Shown here: positions 6,530 to 40,568 of the stretch, piece after piece | How positions within the stretch are numbered: position 1 is the stretch's first letter | How the letters are laid out: each line of letters opens with the position of its first letter | From: Arbacia lixula | Taxonomy: Eukaryota > Echinodermata > Echinoidea > Arbacioida > Arbaciidae | Length of the DNA stretch: 64,000 bases | Direction of reading: 5' to 3' | NCBI GenBank assembly: GCA_963669155.1 | Contig: OZ022576.1 | Coordinates: forward strand, 27,802,866-27,866,865 | Made by a program: the position numbers and the translations under genes | The notes under the pieces: generated by a model | Database searches by the model: none | What the model was told of the DNA's origin: nothing | Seen by the model: the letters and a program-made list of their open reading frames with translations, nothing else

Positions 6530-20020
<13,491 letters not shown>

Positions 20021-30014: not shown

Positions 30015-30418
30015 TTATAGGATCACCCTTCCAGTCGCATCAAACATGGGAGAATCCATGGCATGTATGCCCATGTCTGCACCTCTCCCTACCCCTCTTC
30101 CTATCCCTCTTCCTCTACCCCTACCACCACCACCACCACTACCACCACCTGTTCCTGGTAGCACCGGGCCCCTCCCGATCCCGTGTTCCCCCGACGGCTT
30201 GGGCGGAGCAGGGGACCCAGTGCTACGCTTCCCTTGTACACGGTCAAAGCTGCGAGGGGCTGGAGGTATTTGTTGCGCTCCTTGTACCACTGGGCCCCTC
30301 CCGATACCATGTTCCCCCGACGGTTTGGGTGGAGCAGGGGACCTAGTGCTGGACTTCCCTGGCACCCGTTCAAAGCTGCGAGGGGCTGGTGGTGTTCGTT
30401 GTGTTCCCCTTCCGGGAC
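30015..30418 (-). CDS. BAR gene last exon: Pro/Gly-rich repeat tail
   Basis: Two 42-codon repeats run PPAPRSF(E/D)RV..GK and SPAPPKPSGEHGIGRG. A Gly/Arg run follows, then DMGIHAMDSPMFDATGRVIL before the stop. The Arg-Gly pattern resembles RG-rich low-complexity tails. The acceptor is either CCGAAG before GTCCCGG or an AG about 20 bases upstream; both keep the frame. Confidence 0.7.
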
Positions 30419-31269: not shown

Positions 31270-34200
31270 TGTACATCATGTCTCTCTCTCTTCCCCCTAT
31301 CGCAATCCTTATCCCCCACCCTCTTTCCTTCCTTTCTTTTACGTACGGCTCCCATCTCCCCTTCTCCCTCCTCACCTGTGCTAATTCCGAGTGGTAGTCG
31401 TGCTGAGCAGTGTACACTGACTTGAAGATGTCGATGACGAACCCTCCTCGTCTGCAAACGAAAAGAAAATTAAAAACAAAATACCTGCTTAATTAATACG
31501 CTAGAAAAACGTTGCGCCTTCAGATATGTTGAGAACGGGAATGGCATGAATTCTGTACAAATTCATATTATGTAGATGTGTTATACCAAACATAGGATTT
31601 TTAATTGGTGATGATATTAGCCATGTGAAACAAATTAATTGAATGCTTGTTCATTACCTCCTTTAACGTCGAACAGGAGATCATGGTTTTGCTTCATGAA
31701 GAGGAAATGCAAAAAAAAAAAAAAAATCAAAGTCATGGCACTTCAGCAGCTGATTACCATGTCTTGAGAGAAATATAATATCCAAACATGAACTCACTGC
31801 TGAAAGAGTGATATTGAATATGATATCCAAACAAGAACTCACTGCTGGAAGAGTGGTATTAAATATGATATACAAACAAGAACTCACTGCTGGAAGAGTG
31901 GTATTAAATATGATATACAAACAAGAACTCACTGCTGGAAGAGTGGTATCAAATATGATATACAAACAAGAACTCACTGCTGGAAGAGTGGTATTAAATA
32001 TGATATACAAACAAGAACTCACTGCTGGAAGAGTGGTATTAAATATGATATCCAAACAAGAACACACTGCTGGAAGAGTGGTATTAAATATGATATCCAA
32101 ACAAGAACTCACTGCTGGAAGAGTGGTATTAAATATGATATCCAAACATGAACTCACTGCTGAAAGAGTGATATTGAATATGATATCCAAACAAGAACTC
32201 ACTGCTGGAAGAGTTGTATTAAATATGATATACAAACAAGAACTCACTGCTGGAAGAGTGGTATCAAATATGATATACAAACAAGAACTCACTGCTGGAA
32301 GAGTGGTATTAAATATGATATACAAACAAGAACTCACTGCTGGAAGAGTGGTATTACATATGATATACAAACAAGAACTCACTGCTGGAAGATTGGTATT
32401 AAATATGATATCCAAACAAGAACTCACTGCTGGAAGAGTGGTATTAAATATGATATCCAAACAAGAACTCACTGCTGGAAGAGTGGTATTAAATATGATA
32501 TCCAAACAAGAACTCACTGCTGGAAGAGTGGTATTAAATATGATATCCAAACATGAACTCACTGCTGAAAGAGTGATATTGAATATGATATCCAATCAAG
32601 AACTCACTGCTGGAAGAGTGGTATTACATATGATATACAAACAAGAACTCACTGCTGGAAGATTGGTATTACATATGATATCCAAACAAGAACTCACTGC
32701 TGGAAGAGTTGGGTTAGATCCTCCACCATTTCATCATTGACATTCTTTAGTTTGTTACGTCTCTCGTCTGACTCCTCTTGAAGCTGTGGTGGACATCAAC
32801 GGGAAAGATCAGAAATAAAGCGACCAATGGTAATGAACTTATCTTACATACCCAGTGGGTGAGACGGGTTTGTTGTAAAAGGCTGATTGGTATCATGATG
32901 TTCGAGAGACCAGTCTGCACATTTTCTACGTGGACTACATTTGCGATAGAAAGAAATGCTGGAAAGAAACGGCAGCCATTTTTAAAAATGACCGCCGTGT
33001 AAATGAAGTATTGAACACTATTTAAGATAATATTTGAATGAAACATTTTGCTATTTTATGAGGTGTTATATAGAATAAGATATCATTTCCTACATGATGA
33101 TACCACATTTGTTGGGCTTAGTGGTGATTTTTATTACAATTCGGGGCAAAGAATGTGAATTTTATTATAATGCATATATCCTAAAAATTATTCATTAACG
33201 AATTGAAACTTGTGAGAAAACTGTCAAAACATCGGTCATATACGATGTGTAAAAATCAATGACAGTGCTTATCAGCCTTATGAAGTGACAGTAATCTAAA
33301 GTCCATACCTTGATATTAGCCAAAGCCGTTTTATCTGTTCCTCTGCCCTGTATGTGTCCATAATGGGCCCTTTGTATCTGCATCTTCTCCCATATTACAA
33401 TTTGTTATTTGTCTTCATCATCATGCTAATGTTTGGTAAAGAGATGGGTGGTCCTAATGTAGATTTATGTGTACGCAAGACTGACGTAGGTGAAAATCTC
33501 CAAGTGAGGAACCCGCCTTACAGGTTGTATTTCAATGCATGTTTGCATGCCTACGAATACAGGTTTTTTTTTATCACTGAGTCCTGAAATGCGCTATATC
33601 GCCTTAAAGTAAAAGTAGAATGACATGCTGCACTTGTCTTGACATCCACTATGACCTACCAAATGACCGCCATTTTTCATATTAACAATGTAAATTGGTC
33701 CCCGAGAGAGTGCTTCACTGGCATGTGCGTATGTTACAGGTGTGCATGTTTTTTTCTCGTTTTTGAGGAGGAAGATGATTTAGATAATTTGTCCACAGTT
33801 TATCCATTCTTACCCTTTGTCCGAAAGGATCTGTTAATTCTGAGTTCTTGTGACCACCGCGTGTTGACTGCTACAAATCAAAAACGAAAAAATAAACGAA
33901 AAAAAATCACTATAAAAGTCTTAACATTTGCACATTCGAAATACAACATCAGTGCTATTTACACGATGCTTTCCAACTCTTAAAAACGACATTAACATGT
34001 CTGTCCAATATATGTAATCGTTTAGCAATCATTTACAAGCATGTATTTTATTGTTTGGGAAAGATTTTTAACAATTAATATTTATATGAATACGCAGTTG
34101 ATGTAGCACCATTGAAACAATGGGAGCCGCCTTGAAAAATCAACACTCAATACTGTCTCTACATTTATGATCTTGCCATTTTTAAAAATAATCGTTATCA

Positions 34201-37200
34201 TTATTATTTATTCTTTTTTTTTTGGGGGGGGGGGGCGAAACATAGAAGAAATAAACAGCAGACGCGGTAACCGTAAAAAAAAAATCAATTTCATTTCACC
34301 CTTTAACACCGACCTGTTTCGTCTTTGCAGTGGATACCCTGCCTTCTGTGAGTTTCATATCCCGCTTCTTCAGATACTTCTGTAACCATGATAACAAGAT
34401 CACGCAAAATTATAAGCAATATCAATAGAATAAGATAGAGGCATAACAATATTTTTTTATGAACAACCGAAAAAAAAATTATTATAAGACTCTGGTTGAA
34501 GATGCAGGGAGTGACAATATCTGCAGAAGTATTGGTAGGAAGTTTTCAATTCAATTGTGATAGGAACATACTGAGACGACAGTTGCATACCTCTGCTTCT
34601 ACTCCGAGCTGCTTGAATCTGCGAACAGGCTCTCCCAGTTCATGAACATGGCGTGTGAAAATGCTCCACACTTTGTCGCTGTCCTGTTAAAGAGGGGGAA
34701 AGTAAACACTTTTGGATTTTAATGTAAACAACAAAAAGAGTAAGTCCCCCCCCCCCCCTAAGCAAAATAGCATAACTATTTATCGAAGAAGTTTTGAGCA
34801 AACTAACTCGGCAGGATTGTTTCTTCCCTTATTGACTAACTTCTGTCTGAAAACCACATTTATTCAATCAGTCATGCATGAGTGAGCACAAATTAAAGGC
34901 AAAATTGTTACTTTTCAAAAGTCACAAGAGTCAGTTTTGGGGAACTGTGAAACACGATTTTGTCAAATTCTGTTTCTGGTGTATGTTTAAATGTTGTTGT
35001 TGTTGTTGTTTGGTCATCCATTGTTTCATCCTCTCACACCTATTCTGACACTTTTAATGTTTTTACACGGTTGATTGAGCACAATTTTAGGGGGGCAATC
35101 GCTTCATTGAACCTTTCTAATAATACATCACCATTCCCTATATCAAATGAACTGACAATAGATGTTGTTAACAGCATGTATCATCACATGCTGTGTGAAC
35201 ATGGTTGATTGAGCACACTTTAAAGATGAAGAAAAAAAAAATCCTAAAAATTTAATGCTAATGTGCCAGAGATGCATCCTTTTATTTCCCAATAATTTGT
35301 TGATTTTAGCATTGTATGTGTATCATCATATCCGTTTTCAACTTTCTCAAACCTAATATGTTATTGTGATCGATAATGTAAGGTTGAGTGAACAAAATAT
35401 TACAGGCACAATGCTGATATTTATGATAATTATGGCATATTTTGAAGCAAAATGAAAGATGAATGTGACCCATCTTGCTGAATGTGTGTTATTCTACTAA
35501 ATACACACATTGATACACGAAAAAACTCAAACTTGAATGATAAATGGCATATTTGAAATAGGTATAAAGTGTGTTGGGAGAAAGACTAATCTAGGATTTT
35601 GGATATAAGATGTAACTATATGCCTGCAATGACCTCCTCAAACAATGGTATTGAATTTCCACAACATGTGCGTTAACAGGCAATGATGGATCAAAAGCAA
35701 ATACTATTATCATGTTGCAACAAGTGGAGAGCACTCCTATAGAAAGCAAAGATATGTGTCGTCAAGCCCCAATGTTATGCAATATTACATGTTGAATTTT
35801 CTTCACAGTTCGAAGATTGTTTTTATGTGTGTTTTTTTTTTGTTTCATGGAAGACCTGAATAATGACCCTGTCGCTTTGATCATTCATAAAATAATATGT
35901 TCTTTGTTACCAGGCAGTCTGTACTTAACAGAAAATTTCGAGTATGGTGATGGAATTACCACTACTGATATGAATTTATATATTCGCTTGCAATGGAAAT
36001 TCAAACATAACGTTTCATCCATTATCAAACAATGAGTGAATAGGTCATTGTAGGGACAGAGTTGCACATTAAATCCCAAAACACATTTGATATTTATCTT
36101 AAGATTTAAATTTGATTTTTTAAATATCAATTGTAAAACTTTAAAGCGTGACATGAAGATGTTTATTTAACATAACGCACATTCTGTAAAATAGGTGACA
36201 TTCATCTTTTACTTTACCGGAAAATATGCCGTGATTATCATCCAATTGAATATCCCCATTACGCCTTTAATATTGTGTTCACTTAGCCATGCAATATGGA
36301 TCAAAATAACAGATAAGGTTACAGAAAGTTGATAATGGGTAATGATACACATACAATGCTGAAATCAACAAATCATTGGTATATAAACAGGCACATCTGT
36401 GCCATATTAACATTACATTTTAGGATTTTTGCTTCATCTATAAGTGTGCTCATTCAACCACGACTTTCTCTATATGTTCTCACAGCATATGATGATACAT
36501 GTTACATGATACATAGCCTATATGATGTCTATGCATTCCATGAAGTCAACGGATGTTGCAACATAGGCCTATAAAGGGTGCAACAGAGCAACCCCCCCCC
36601 CCCCCCGTAAAATTGTGCTCAGTCAAGCGTTAAACGGCGTCAAAAGTGTCAAAATAAGTGTGAAAGGACCGAACAGTGGATGATCAAACAACACTTAAAC
36701 ACACACCAGAAACAAAATTCACCAAAATCTTGTTTTCTCAGACAAAAACAAAACTGACTCCTGGGACTTTTGAAAAGTTACAATTTTTTCCTTTAATATG
36801 TGCTCACTCATGTATGAATGATTGGATTAATGTGATGTTCATACAGAAGTTAGTCAATAAGTAAGCCTAAATGAACAATCCTGCCGAATTATTTTGCGCA
36901 AAATGTTCTGCTATTTTGTTTAAGGGGGACTTACTTTTTTGTTGTGTGTAGTTAATAGTCTGTTTGTCTACTTGCCATATCGTCTACTAGCACAAGCTGA
37001 TATGGTTAAACCATGGAGCTAATGATAGCTCCATGCGCAGACCTACATGGCAACAACTATTGATAATAATTAAAAAAAAAAAAAAAAACGTCTGTTGCCT
37101 ATACACACAGGGTAAACAACTTCTAAATGCAAGTTAAACTTTGAGAGAGTCTTGGTAACTTTCAATTTACTAAACAATGTTTGCTCTTCCGAAAAGGAAG

Positions 37201-37769
37201 TCAATTCAGCTAAAAATGTCTGAAATACGATATGGCTTTCGATTGCCGTTCAAAAAGAGATGAACGGACTCCATAGATCTCACCTTCAGCGCCACCTTAT
37301 ACTCTTTCTGCTGCGGCCAGAAATCTTCGTAGAATTCTTCTAAACAGTCGTTGACGTTCGTCATGCATGACTTTGCTTCTGTAATGTAAAGCATCAACAG
37401 CACGCAGTCGCAAAAATAATCATGACTTTTTCATGTCCTTAGTTTTGATTATTAATTACAATAAAAATCATACCACCCCATATTTTAAGTACAAATCACT
37501 TTTAATATGTTTGGGTACTGTCTTGTTCACAAACCCTCGGGACACCATTCATGAAGCTTATCTTCGGGAATGGTGATGCTAAGACGGGGGTCGAGTTGAC
37601 ACGATTCTTCAGTTAATTATAGTATCCGCAGAATGTTGCTGCTGTTGGCCACGTGCCCCACCACTTTATATTGGTGGGGTACGTGACCAACAGCAACAGG
37701 ATACAGTAATACGAATAACACAGTAATACAAACAGCATGAAAACCTCATACACCTGCCCCCCCCCCCCC

Positions 37770-37816
<47 letters not shown>

Positions 37817-40568
37817 AAAAAATGAAATAAGGCTTGAAAATAATTTATTTTCGCCTTACCTTTTATTGCATTATTGTATCTTTCGACAGCCGACTGAAGG
37901 TGTTCAACTTGAGCTATTTGTTTCTTAAAGGAGTAGTGAAATTCTTCGAAGAGTATATCGCCGCCTGTTACCCCTGCAACCCGCCTTGGCTGAAATTGTG
38001 ACAGAACACGATATACAGCTGAATATGTTAATGGTGATCGAAGCACATTTCATATTCTATGATATGCGTATATAGTTATGTATATAATTTTGTACATTCT
38101 TCTTTCTGTATAACGACAATTGACATTGAAAAGTTCTAAGTGCACAATCTACTTTGGAGTTTAATAGAATTTAATGCGTTTTGGTGGCCTTTACAGCGCT
38201 TTAAATCAATTTAACAGGTTGTTGTGGGGTTTTTTTTTTTTATGCAGGAGCGTGTATACCCAGGTCGAAATTCCCATAGAAACCAGTAGAAACCAGTAGA
38301 GACCGTCTACTGGTTTCTACTGGTCCAGTAGAGTCTACTGGTCTGAAGAGGAACTACGAAATCAAACCAGTAGAAACCAGTAGAAACCAGTAGAGTCTAA
38401 TGTGTTGAAGACCAGTATAGAAACCAATAGAAACCAGTGAGATCTAATGGTTTGAGAAGGAGTGTGAAAAAAACAAAGTCAAACCAGTAGAAACCATTAG
38501 AGACCAGTGGATTCTAATGGTATTGAAGACCAGTAGAAAACATTAGAATCCACAGGTCTCTAATGGTTTCTACTGTTTTTGACCTTTTTTTACACTCCTT
38601 TTCAAACCATTAGATCTCACTGGTTTCTATTGGTTTCTACTGGTCTTCAATACCATTAGAACCCACTGGTCTCTATAATGGTTTCTACTGGTTTGACTTT
38701 TTTTTTCACACTCCTTCTCAACCATTAGATCTCACTGGTTTCTATTGGTTACTAATGGTCTTCAATACCATTATAATCCACTGGTCTCTAATGGTTTCTA
38801 CTGGTTTGACTTTGTTTTTTTCACACTCCTTCTCAACCATTAGATCTCACTGGTTTCTATTGGTTTCTACTGGTCTTCAATACCATTTGAATCCACTGGT
38901 CTCTAATGGTTTCTACTAGTTTGACTTTGTTTTTTTTCGCACTAATAGAAACTAGTGAGATATAATGTTTTGAAAAGGAGTGTGAAAAATTCAAAGTCAA
39001 ACCAGGAGAAACCATTAGAGACCAGTGAATTATACTGGTGGAGACCAGGATAAACCAATAGAAACCAGTAAGACCTAATGGTTTTAAAAGGAATGTCAAG
39101 AATTCAAAGTAAAACCAGTAGAAACCAATAGAAACCAGTGAGATCTAATGGTTTGAAAAGGAGTGTGAAAAATACAAAGTCAAACCAGTAGAAACCATTA
39201 GAGACCAGTGAATTCTCCTGGTCTTGGAGATCAGTAGAAACCAATAGAAACTAGTGAGATATAATGTTTGGAAAAGGAGTATGAAAAATACAAAGTCAAA
39301 CCAGTATAAACCAATAGAAACCAAAAGGAATGTCAAGAATTCAAAGTAAAACCAGTAGAAACCAATAGAAACCAGTGAGATCTAATGGTTTGAAAAGGAG
39401 TGTGAAAAATACAAAGTCAAACCAGTAGAAACCATTAGAGACCAGTGAATTCTACTGGTAATGGAGACCAGTAGAAACCAATAGAAACCAATAGAAATAG
39501 AGATGCTCATGAATATTCATGCATGCATTTACGTGTCCTAATTTTGTACTTTTAAACAGATAACCTCCACCTAACCAGATAAAAGGAATTTTACCAAGTA
39601 ATGATTTCAAGTTTAAACGTAAAATAGTGAATGTCACCTACTTAAGTGAAGACAATAATGATAACGACAACAAAAATGATCTTCTTAAATGTAAGTTAGA
39701 GTAACCAATATCTTATGAACCTTATAACCGTACTGCTATATATATGAAAGTCTGTGAAGGATAGAATAGGAATTAGGATAGGTATAGGATAGGATAGGAA
39801 TAAATAAAGGATAGGATAGGATTAGGTTAAAACGATAAGGAGATATGCCATAATTCGGATTATCATATACTAAATATAAATCGATATTTCATCAACATTT
39901 TTAATTTTGATTCCTATTGGTCTCCTGATGGCTCCAGTAGACCTATTCTACTAGTTTCTACTGGTATTCTGATGGATCCAGGAGAAATTGCTATTCTATT
40001 CTACTGGTATTTTTCTAATGGTTTCTACTGGAAATCATTTCACTTTCCATATTCAAACCAGTAGAAAAATTCCAGTAGAAACCAGTAGGAAGCTCTATTG
40101 GATCCAGTAGAGATTCCTACTGGTTTCTACTGGTATTCTACTGGTCTTCTATTGGTCTTGTATTGGATCCAGTAGAGATTTCTACTGGTTTCTACTGGTA
40201 TTCTACTGGTATTTTTCTAATGGTTTCTACTGGAAATCATTTCACTTTCCATATTCAAACCAGTAGAAAATTTCCAGTAGAAACCAGTAGAGATTCTAAT
40301 GGTTTTTCTCTACTGGTTTCTACTGGTTTTTCGTCCTGGGTAATCACAATATTTGCTCTACATTCACAACCAAACACATTTCATCTCATTATTCTCTATA
40401 TAGGGGACGGATTTTTGTACCTTAATCAGAAGTTCCGAAAAGTTATGAAAAGTCGGCTATCCGGGAAGTCAACCCCAGCTTTTTTTTTAAAAAAAATGTT
40501 ATTATTATTTATGAATATGCAAGTTTTACCTGATAAGAAGATTGCTGAGGGGAAAAGTTCTGAGCCAT
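30015..40568 (-). CDS. Amphiphysin-like BAR protein with Pro/Gly-rich tail, no SH3 (10 exons)
   Basis: Exons on the - strand: 40568-40530 (ATG), 37989-37860, 37378-37284, 34683-34591, 34379-34314, 33347-33309, 32783-32698, 31451-31376, 31061-30779 and about 30418-30015 (TAA). All have AG/GT edges and the phases fit, for about 436 residues. Exons 2-8 align in order with the BIN1 BAR domain: FEEFHYSFKKQ with FEQCVQNFNKQ, NVNDCLEEFYEDFWP with KLNECLQEVYEPDWP, DSDKVW with NNDLLW, LKKRDMKL with IAKRGRKL, and RGGFVIDIFKSVY with RVGFYVNTFQSIA. BAR domains dimerise and bend membranes. The tail has two 42-residue repeats with SPAPPKPSGEHGIGRGP, then a GGGSGGGGGRGRGRG run. The N-terminus is short (MAQNFSPQQSSYQ) without a clear amphipathic helix. 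The acceptors of exons 6 and 10 are the least certain. Function is inferred from the family only. Confidence 0.8.
30779..31061 (-). CDS. BAR gene exon 9: end of BAR and linker
   Basis: Starts ISGSILGMVTGLENIK, which fits the last BAR helix, then a basic GQGRHRRV and a Pro/Ala/Gly-rich linker (STPSPGMPSPAAPGAGGG). Ends in GTAAGC. Clearly GC-rich against its introns. Confidence 0.75.
31181..31267. repeat. (CA)n microsatellite, about 43 units
   Basis: Pure CA run in the intron between BAR exons 8 and 9. The poly-(VC) and poly-(TH) ORFs here are artefacts. Confidence 0.97.
31376..31451 (-). CDS. BAR gene exon 8
   Basis: Completes a split Gln codon with exon 7 and reads RGGFVIDIFKSVYTAQHDY, the BIN1-like RVGFYVNTFQSIAGLEENF segment. 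Ends CACAG before GTGAGG. Confidence 0.85.
31780..32709. repeat. 45-bp minisatellite, about 20 units, repeating a splice donor
   Basis: The unit on the - strand reads CTCTTCCAGCAGTGAGTT, then CTTGTTTGGATATCATAT, then TTAATACCA. It starts exactly at the 3' end of BAR exon 7, so each unit is a copy of CTCTTCCAGCA and its GTGAGT donor. Variants (ATCC or ATAC, ATTAAA or ATCAAA, TGAAAGAGTGATATTG) recur in the same order about every 8-9 units, a higher-order repeat. Because 45 is a multiple of three, both strands stay open for over 300 codons, but neither ORF is a gene. Confidence 0.95.
32698..32783 (-). CDS. BAR gene exon 7, donor at edge of minisatellite
   Basis: Reads LQEESDERRNKLKNVNDEMV then EDLTQLFQ and a split codon, aligning with the BIN1 segment that includes EEELIKAQKVFEEMNVDLQ. 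The donor is CAGCA before GTGAGT. Reading past the donor in this frame meets TGA at once. Confidence 0.8.
33309..33347 (-). CDS. BAR gene exon 6 (micro-exon)
   Basis: 13 codons, GRGTDKTALANIK, between ATACAG and GTATGG. An alternative acceptor 24 bases upstream would add eight in-frame codons. Confidence 0.6.
33348..34313. other. BAR gene intron 5, nothing recognised
   Basis: AT-rich, with a G run near 34222. No repeat shared with other parts of the window. Confidence 0.5.
34314..34379 (-). CDS. BAR gene exon 5
   Basis: 22 codons beginning KYLKKRDMKLTEGRV, the basic RGRKLVDYD-like segment of the BAR domain. Phase 0 at both ends. Confidence 0.75.
34591..34683 (-). CDS. BAR gene exon 4
   Basis: 31 codons, DSDKVWSIFTRHVHELGEPV then RRFKQLGVEAE, between TTAACAG and GTATGC. 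Aligns with the NNDLLWMDYHQKLVDQALL part of BIN1. Confidence 0.85.
34727..36948. mobile_element. AACAACAAAAA TIR element, 2.2-kb copy
   Basis: Inverted ends of about 200-230 bp run from AACAACAAAAAGAGTAAGTC and CACACAACAAAAAAGTAAGT inward through TTGGCAGGATTGTT-like and CATGAGTGAGCACA motifs, with TA on both sides. The interior carries repeated TTGAGTGAGCACA-like motifs: near 34885, 35075 and 35205, and inverted near 36280, 36450, 36612 and 36806. There is no transposase. It fills nearly all of the intron between BAR exons 3 and 4. A 744-bp relative is at 42554-43297. Confidence 0.8.
37284..37378 (-). CDS. BAR gene exon 3
   Basis: The split Glu codon is shared with exon 2, then AKSCMTNVNDCLEEFYEDFW and PQQKEYKVALK. 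It matches the ASKKLNECLQEVYEPDWPG part of BIN1. Confidence 0.85.
37625..37695. repeat. Short hairpin (CTGTTGGCCACGTGCCCCACCA)
   Basis: GCTGTTGGCCACGTGCCCCA is followed after about 16 bases by its near-perfect inverse. Small foldback in BAR intron 2. Confidence 0.75.
37756..37812. repeat. C-run, A-run and (TA)n tract
   Basis: Low-complexity tract of poly-C, poly-A and about 14 TA units, immediately downstream of BAR exon 2. Confidence 0.9.
37860..37989 (-). CDS. BAR gene exon 2: start of the BAR domain
   Basis: Reads PRRVAGVTGGDILFEEFHYS then FKKQIAQVEHLQSAVERYNN and AIK, ending phase 1 before GTAAGG. FEEFHYSFKKQ is the FEQCVQNFNKQ segment of BIN1 helix 1. Confidence 0.88.
38269..40340. mobile_element. 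2.07-kb TIR element made of CCAGTAGAAA repeats
   Basis: Ends CCCAGGTCGAAA and TTTCGTCCTGGG are inverse with one mismatch, flanked by TA. The body is built of dozens of 10-12-bp units (AAACCAGTAG, AACCATTAG, GAGACCAGTG) in alternating orientation: forward at about 38281-38560, reverse to 38935, forward to 39500, then a unique AT-rich core to 39915, then mixed to the right end. A longer period with TCACACTCCTTCTCAACC is overlaid. It sits in BAR gene intron 1. No coding capacity. Confidence 0.8.
39755..39835. repeat. GATAGGATAGG microsatellite
   Basis: Short tandem AGGATAG units within the unique core of the preceding element. Confidence 0.7.
40530..40568 (-). CDS. BAR gene exon 1 (start)
   Basis: ATG GCT CAG and so on gives MAQNFSPQQSSYQ, 13 codons, then GTAAAA. 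Phase 0 agrees with exon 2. It is the only in-phase start I could find upstream, so the model is plausible but not proven. Confidence 0.55.

Follow-up and report, generated by a model that had tools for sequence, protein, structure and literature searches.

Minisatellite-like tandem duplications of exon/intron boundaries have been described in lancelets under the name of mirages, with examples in Adh3 and in the globin genes BflGb6 and BflGb9 (PMC3087553); troponin C and PGBD5 were added to these cases by the account given in PMC3902484. The Adh3 data and the study's own RT-PCR suggested that regular splicing is undisturbed, and both length and somatic instability have been reported (PMC3087553). 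The same study points out that many of these repeats contain signals with the potential to serve as cryptic splice sites. As far as the account in PMC3902484 goes, mirage structures are likewise without effect on regular splicing.

Human genes offer further examples. The VNTR in intron 18 of ABCA7 comprises 23.7 units of 25 bp in the human reference and includes the donor of exon 18; in the sections of PMC5954066 that deal with splicing, retention of one unit is put at 2±1% and is unaffected by array length in cell lines, and skipping of exon 19 rises with array length. In IFI6 (6-16, G1P3), splicing also takes place from two downstream repeat units, so that three mRNAs are made (PMC4526556); this goes back to Turri, Cuin and Porter 1995, as cited in PMC4526556, PMC2915984 and PMC2572611. 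More broadly, tandem repeats and duplications are described as changing gene structure or making introns in the relevant parts of PMC2812944 and PMC2891723, and the origin of introns from tandem duplication is treated by Zhuo et al. 2007 and in the Rogers model, both as cited. Lancelet and human genes thus already provide described cases of this structural kind, to which the array presented here is added.

The window, that is the whole stretch of 64,000 nucleotides of Arbacia lixula DNA that was analysed, contains a minus-strand gene for which six exons (A to F) could be traced. The features discussed in the following are:

37860..37964, minus strand: BAR exon A, 5' edge uncertain
37284..37378, minus strand: BAR exon B
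34591..34683, minus strand: BAR exon C
33309..33386, minus strand: BAR exon D, with an uncertain 5' edge and an atypical acceptor
32698..32783, minus strand: BAR exon E, 86 nt, LQEESDERRNKLKNVNDEMVEDLTQLFQ(Q), with a phase-2 end; the exonic part of unit 1 consists of its last 11-12 nt
31764..32708, minus strand: minisatellite of 21 units of 45 bp, each with an exon-end-like 11-mer and a donor (from TRF and the unit split)
32692..32697, minus strand: the first GTGAGT, presumed to be the authentic 5' splice site (from the sequence and from the intron position and phase of a paralogue)
31792..32652, minus strand: the other 19 copies of GTGAGT in 45-nt steps, the first at 32652 (unit 2) and the last at 31797-31792 (unit 21) (from the unit split)
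31452..32697, minus strand: intron E/F, 1246 nt, its first ~930 nt occupied by the array
31376..31451, minus strand: exon F, 76 nt, completing the split codon and continuing with RGGFVIDIFKSVYTAQHDYHSELAQ; preceded by TTCGTTTGCAG

The six exons were joined by hand, with a script used for the E to F join alone. Together they encode 177 aa, a protein that matches the Pfam BAR family PF03114 (E=9.5e-8, 32.4 bits vs a cut-off of 28.5) and, over nearly its whole length, the structures of BIN1 (2fic, E=1.4e-11) and amphiphysin (3sog, 4e-10). Seven of the ten PDB matches at E<=1 are to BIN1, BIN2 or amphiphysin. Judged by this homology, the minus-strand gene encodes a BAR domain of the amphiphysin/BIN1 type. 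Its first and last exons were not found, and queries with SH3 domains gave no convincing match for this gene in the window, only for its plus-strand paralogue. Two side observations were made nearby: the acceptor of exon D (TTGTAATATGGGAG) is without a clear pyrimidine tract, and at 30153-30401 a 126-bp (42-codon) unit occurs twice within an open proline-rich minus-strand frame; lying downstream of the BAR exons, it may be a coding repeat.

The paralogue provides a control for the exon edge on which the array sits. It was found by tblastn with human BIN1 after the 50 kb before the window had been added, and turned out to be a second, more canonical gene of the amphiphysin/BIN1 type. It occupies the plus strand, and the two genes are arranged tail to tail. 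Its BAR exons lie at window positions -37334 (E=0.002), -14316 (4e-6), -8714 (2e-7), -8286 (0.003) and -1912 (9e-5), and its SH3 domain falls into two pieces at 18408-18497 and 19937-20017 on the plus strand. A protein search of the animal's own genome with the BAR protein returned, at E<=10, the six exons A-F and nothing else, and so missed this diverged paralogue.

Exon E reads CTCTTCCAGCA at its 3' end, followed by GTGAGT, with 32698 as the last exon base. In the paralogue, the exon homologous to E ends in ...CTATACGACAG and is followed by GTGCAT, and the next exon opens with TCGCATTCCG after ...CTATCCCAG. A comparison by eye places the intron of both genes after the second base of the codon preceding an R (CA|A, then CGA in the gene with the array). 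This agreement in codon and in phase 2 is evidence that exon E ends at 32698. Further support comes from the alignment with BIN1, which spans the E/F junction (query ...tqlfqqrggfvidifksv vs BIN1 ...pslwnsrvgfyvntfqsi); the exon end proposed by the initial annotation thus has the support of homology. The common intron position further suggests that intron E/F is older than the array within it.

Split from the exon edge, the 45-bp unit is repeated in tandem 21 times on the minus strand, running from 32708 to 31764 over 945 bp with an incomplete final unit. TRF reports a period of 45 for 31771-32709, with 20.9 copies, 94% matches and a score of 1654, and chance is far from accounting for such an array. 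As in the mirages, unit 1 comprises the end of exon E, an edge placed by homology, and the start of the intron, and the units carry a splice signal: GTGAGT recurs at 45-nt steps in 20 of the 21, with GTGTGT in unit 15 (32078-32034). As in ABCA7, the array lies at the 5' end of its intron and takes in the donor, presumably the authentic one, of the exon before it. On either side the array passes into sequence unlike the unit. At the far end, unit 21 differs from the consensus at eight positions, five of them in its last seven bases, where the repeat has ended.

The initial annotation had reported a donor-bearing 45-bp minisatellite that amplifies an exon edge together with its donor, and both the array and the amplified edge are real. 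Its description of every copy as carrying CTCTTCCAGCA followed by GTGAGT goes too far. An exact 11-mer is present in 16/21 units, with an initial A in units 2 and 8 and CTCTTTCAGCA in units 4, 13 and 21, and 11-mer plus donor are exact in 15/21, i.e. unit 1 and 14 other units have an identical 17 nt of exon edge and hexamer. The unit had also been said to start exactly at the exon end; instead, the common sequence begins 11-12 nt inside exon E, upstream of which exon and units diverge, and each unit is composed of about 11-12 nt of exon and 33-34 nt of intron. The designation of the exon as number 7 is unconfirmed, E being the fifth of those traced.

Further observations on the array concern its ends and the interior of its units. 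CTCT is found at both ends, in the exon as CTCTTCC (near 32708) and in the far flank as ATATTTCTCTCAAG (near 31770), a possible microhomology of the first duplication. In most units (31764-32708, minus strand), an acceptor-like stretch such as TTTAATACCACTCTTCCAGCAG, of the NAGNAG form, stands just before the donor. The units thereby resemble tiny complete splice modules, and use of their acceptor-like stretch would add 2 nt.

How the units multiplied can be read in part from their variants. Among the first 20 units, 11 of the 45 columns vary. One block of variants, with changes at columns 38 and 43 in a unit and at columns 6 and 20 in the unit after it, occurs at units 3-4, 12-13 and 20-21, hence at spacings of 9 and 8. 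Shuffling the order of the first 20 units gave p=0.053 for lag 8, p=0.006 for lag 9 and p=0.055 for the best of 12 lags. The recurrence of variants in blocks of 8-9 noted earlier is there, and with its three occurrences it lends modest support to segmental expansion by 8-9 units, which is plausible.

What follows from the choice among these donors? From the first, the frame is open into exon F. Retention of 1 to 20 units leads to the identical TGA after LTQLFQQ in 20/20 cases (in one of them the donor is GTGTGT), which confirms the immediate stop past the first donor and the common point of truncation that had been predicted. Transcripts from later donors would be open to nonsense-mediated decay. 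A coding reading of the array itself was considered, as 45 bp equal 15 codons and long frames are open on both strands (328 aa on the plus, 304 aa on the minus strand), and was rejected: the frame of exon E meets TGA, and the long frames are treated as by-products.

We consider it likely that the array is a mostly neutral minisatellite of the mirage type, spliced mainly from its first donor, rather than a dedicated regulator. The history we infer would start with a tandem duplication across the boundary between exon E and its intron, creating a 45-bp unit of about 12 nt of exon and 33 nt of intron. It would then have grown to 21 units by slippage or unequal exchange, perhaps 8-9 units at a time. 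Splicing would proceed mainly from the first copy as the sole donor that keeps the protein frame, whereas later donors would rarely be used, each use ending at the same TGA with nonsense-mediated decay as a possible outcome. By analogy, the lancelet and ABCA7 cases point to such a dominance of the first donor. The initial annotation had left the choice between a decoy or buffer for U1 and a neutral by-product; published analogues, the lack of a genome-wide motif excess and the lack of significant constraint on the donor favour the by-product, but IFI6, in what PMC4526556 relates of it, shows that later units can be active. Other points also stand against neutrality. A longer ABCA7 array raises skipping of the next exon in the results quoted above, so long alleles need not be neutral, and the potential cryptic sites in many lancelet repeats (PMC3087553) point the same way.

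One alternative would give the later donors a function: under tissue control, donors 2-21 would yield a poison extension, the outcome being either decay or a truncated BAR protein with the end ...LTQLFQQ. The uniform stop after 1 to 20 retained units fits this, and the accounts of the human genes show that retention of one unit does occur in ABCA7 and that downstream units are used in IFI6. Yet the level in ABCA7 is 2±1% and about equal in the tissues tested, and nothing found in this analysis points to regulation. We regard such a regulated extension as unlikely.

A buffer or decoy for U1 seems quite unlikely. It would build on the non-consensus exon side of the donor, with ~20 copies either raising local U1 occupancy, which would let the exon be defined although its donor is weak, or keeping U1 away from that donor. 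The intactness of 20/21 GTGAGT copies speaks for it and against neutrality; recent homogenisation explains this number, but selection also could. In addition, the donor of exon E has the weakest pairing with the U1 5' end among the six traced donors of the gene, at -5.4 kcal/mol compared with -10.0, -9.6, -5.8, -6.2 and -11.6 kcal/mol for the other five; three donors of the paralogue lie at -6.6 to -6.8 kcal/mol. These energies cover 9-mers only and ignore pseudouridine and longer context, and the weak pairing is one weak observation in favour of a role for donor number, which could then matter. On the other side, conservation within the donor 9-mer does not significantly exceed that in the remaining columns of the unit (1/9 columns variable vs 10/36 elsewhere, p=0.42, at low power), and the published lancelet cases splice regularly.

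Genome-wide counts do not favour a role in U1 recruitment either. Three AGGTRAGT motifs spaced 20-50 nt apart gave 243+96 (339) matches, no excess over the 416+453 (869) of a control with the motif read backwards; these are counts of matches rather than loci, and a few long arrays dominate the matches listed. The array of the window is itself absent from the count because its GTGAGT follows CA, not AG. Among the matches listed there are at least about ten clusters on contigs C1 to C5, so arrays repeating a donor-like motif exist elsewhere in the genome, but not in excess. The same search showed many copies of AGGTGAGT in arrays at G000:C5:160030-163205 and C1:15456726-15457491. Closer to the locus, TRF (period 15-100, >=5 copies) gave three rows in the 124 kb of context including the window, two of them for one place, and no other 45-bp array of >=5 copies. 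In 140 kb from 14 other places it gave four rows, all in one place, too few to derive a rate from. At 38364-40233, short repeats built around AAACCAGTAGAAACC are clustered; they occur in both orientations and with several periods.

In a further reading, the weak donor of this gene would be rescued in function, or tuned in quantity, by ~20 downstream copies that jointly recruit U1, and the length of the array would set the ratio between full-length BAR protein and poison transcript. We hold this to be very unlikely.

It is highly improbable that the copy number is wrong through collapse or expansion in the assembly, or that the array is an assembly artefact altogether. There is a precedent in one mirage whose draft assembly was aberrant (PMC3087553), but here the contig (C1) extends over 55.6 Mb, the units are told apart by point changes that follow a partly ordered pattern, and both array ends run into sequence unlike the unit. 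A 90-nt query of two units had 9/9 of its matches in the 607-Mb assembly within this array, with a tool that skips very common words; as it matches one place in the assembly, a second haplotype was not found with it.

Stepwise (recursive) splicing, with the units as ratchet points, is suggested by the unit sequence itself, which has an acceptor-like stretch (e.g. TTTAATACCACTCTTCCAG) before each donor, but it is hardly conceivable, since the CA between AG and GT means that each step leaves 2 nt and shifts the frame, and the intron has just 1246 nt.

By itself, the array leaves the current understanding unchanged. A literature search met no paper on an array in this BAR gene, a negative that says little. 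The locus does offer a clean natural setting in which to test how the spliceosome selects one of several identical donors, as only the sequence further upstream differs between them. With it, a BAR-domain gene joins globins, Adh3, troponin C, PGBD5, ABCA7 and IFI6 as a published or newly described site of a boundary-spanning minisatellite.

The comparison with these systems brings out what is common and what is particular to this locus. Like the lancelet mirages, its repeats span an exon/intron boundary and carry a splice signal, and its 45-bp unit falls within the 10-72 bp of the Adh3 units (PMC3087553). It differs from BflGb6, whose haplotypes have 6 and 3 units of 150-160 bp at the 3' end of an intron, in having 21 units, and while transcript and instability data exist for lancelet mirages, this array is known from sequence alone. 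With the ABCA7 VNTR, as PMC5954066 describes it, it has in common the position at the 5' end of an intron, the inclusion of the exon's donor and a premature stop upon unit retention. The 25-bp unit of ABCA7, by the same description, begins with the donor GT, and retention of one unit shifts the frame; here the unit has 45 bp, of which 11-12 nt are exonic, and the stop lies in the exon's own frame. The IFI6 minisatellite resembles it in offering multiple splice donors, with the difference that use of downstream units is reported there (PMC4526556), whereas the donors described here have been seen in genomic DNA. Finally, a sequence bearing a splice site is tandemly duplicated here as in models of intron origin by duplication; in those models, as cited, a new intron arises, whereas at this locus the intron has the same position in the paralogue and the donor alone has been multiplied.
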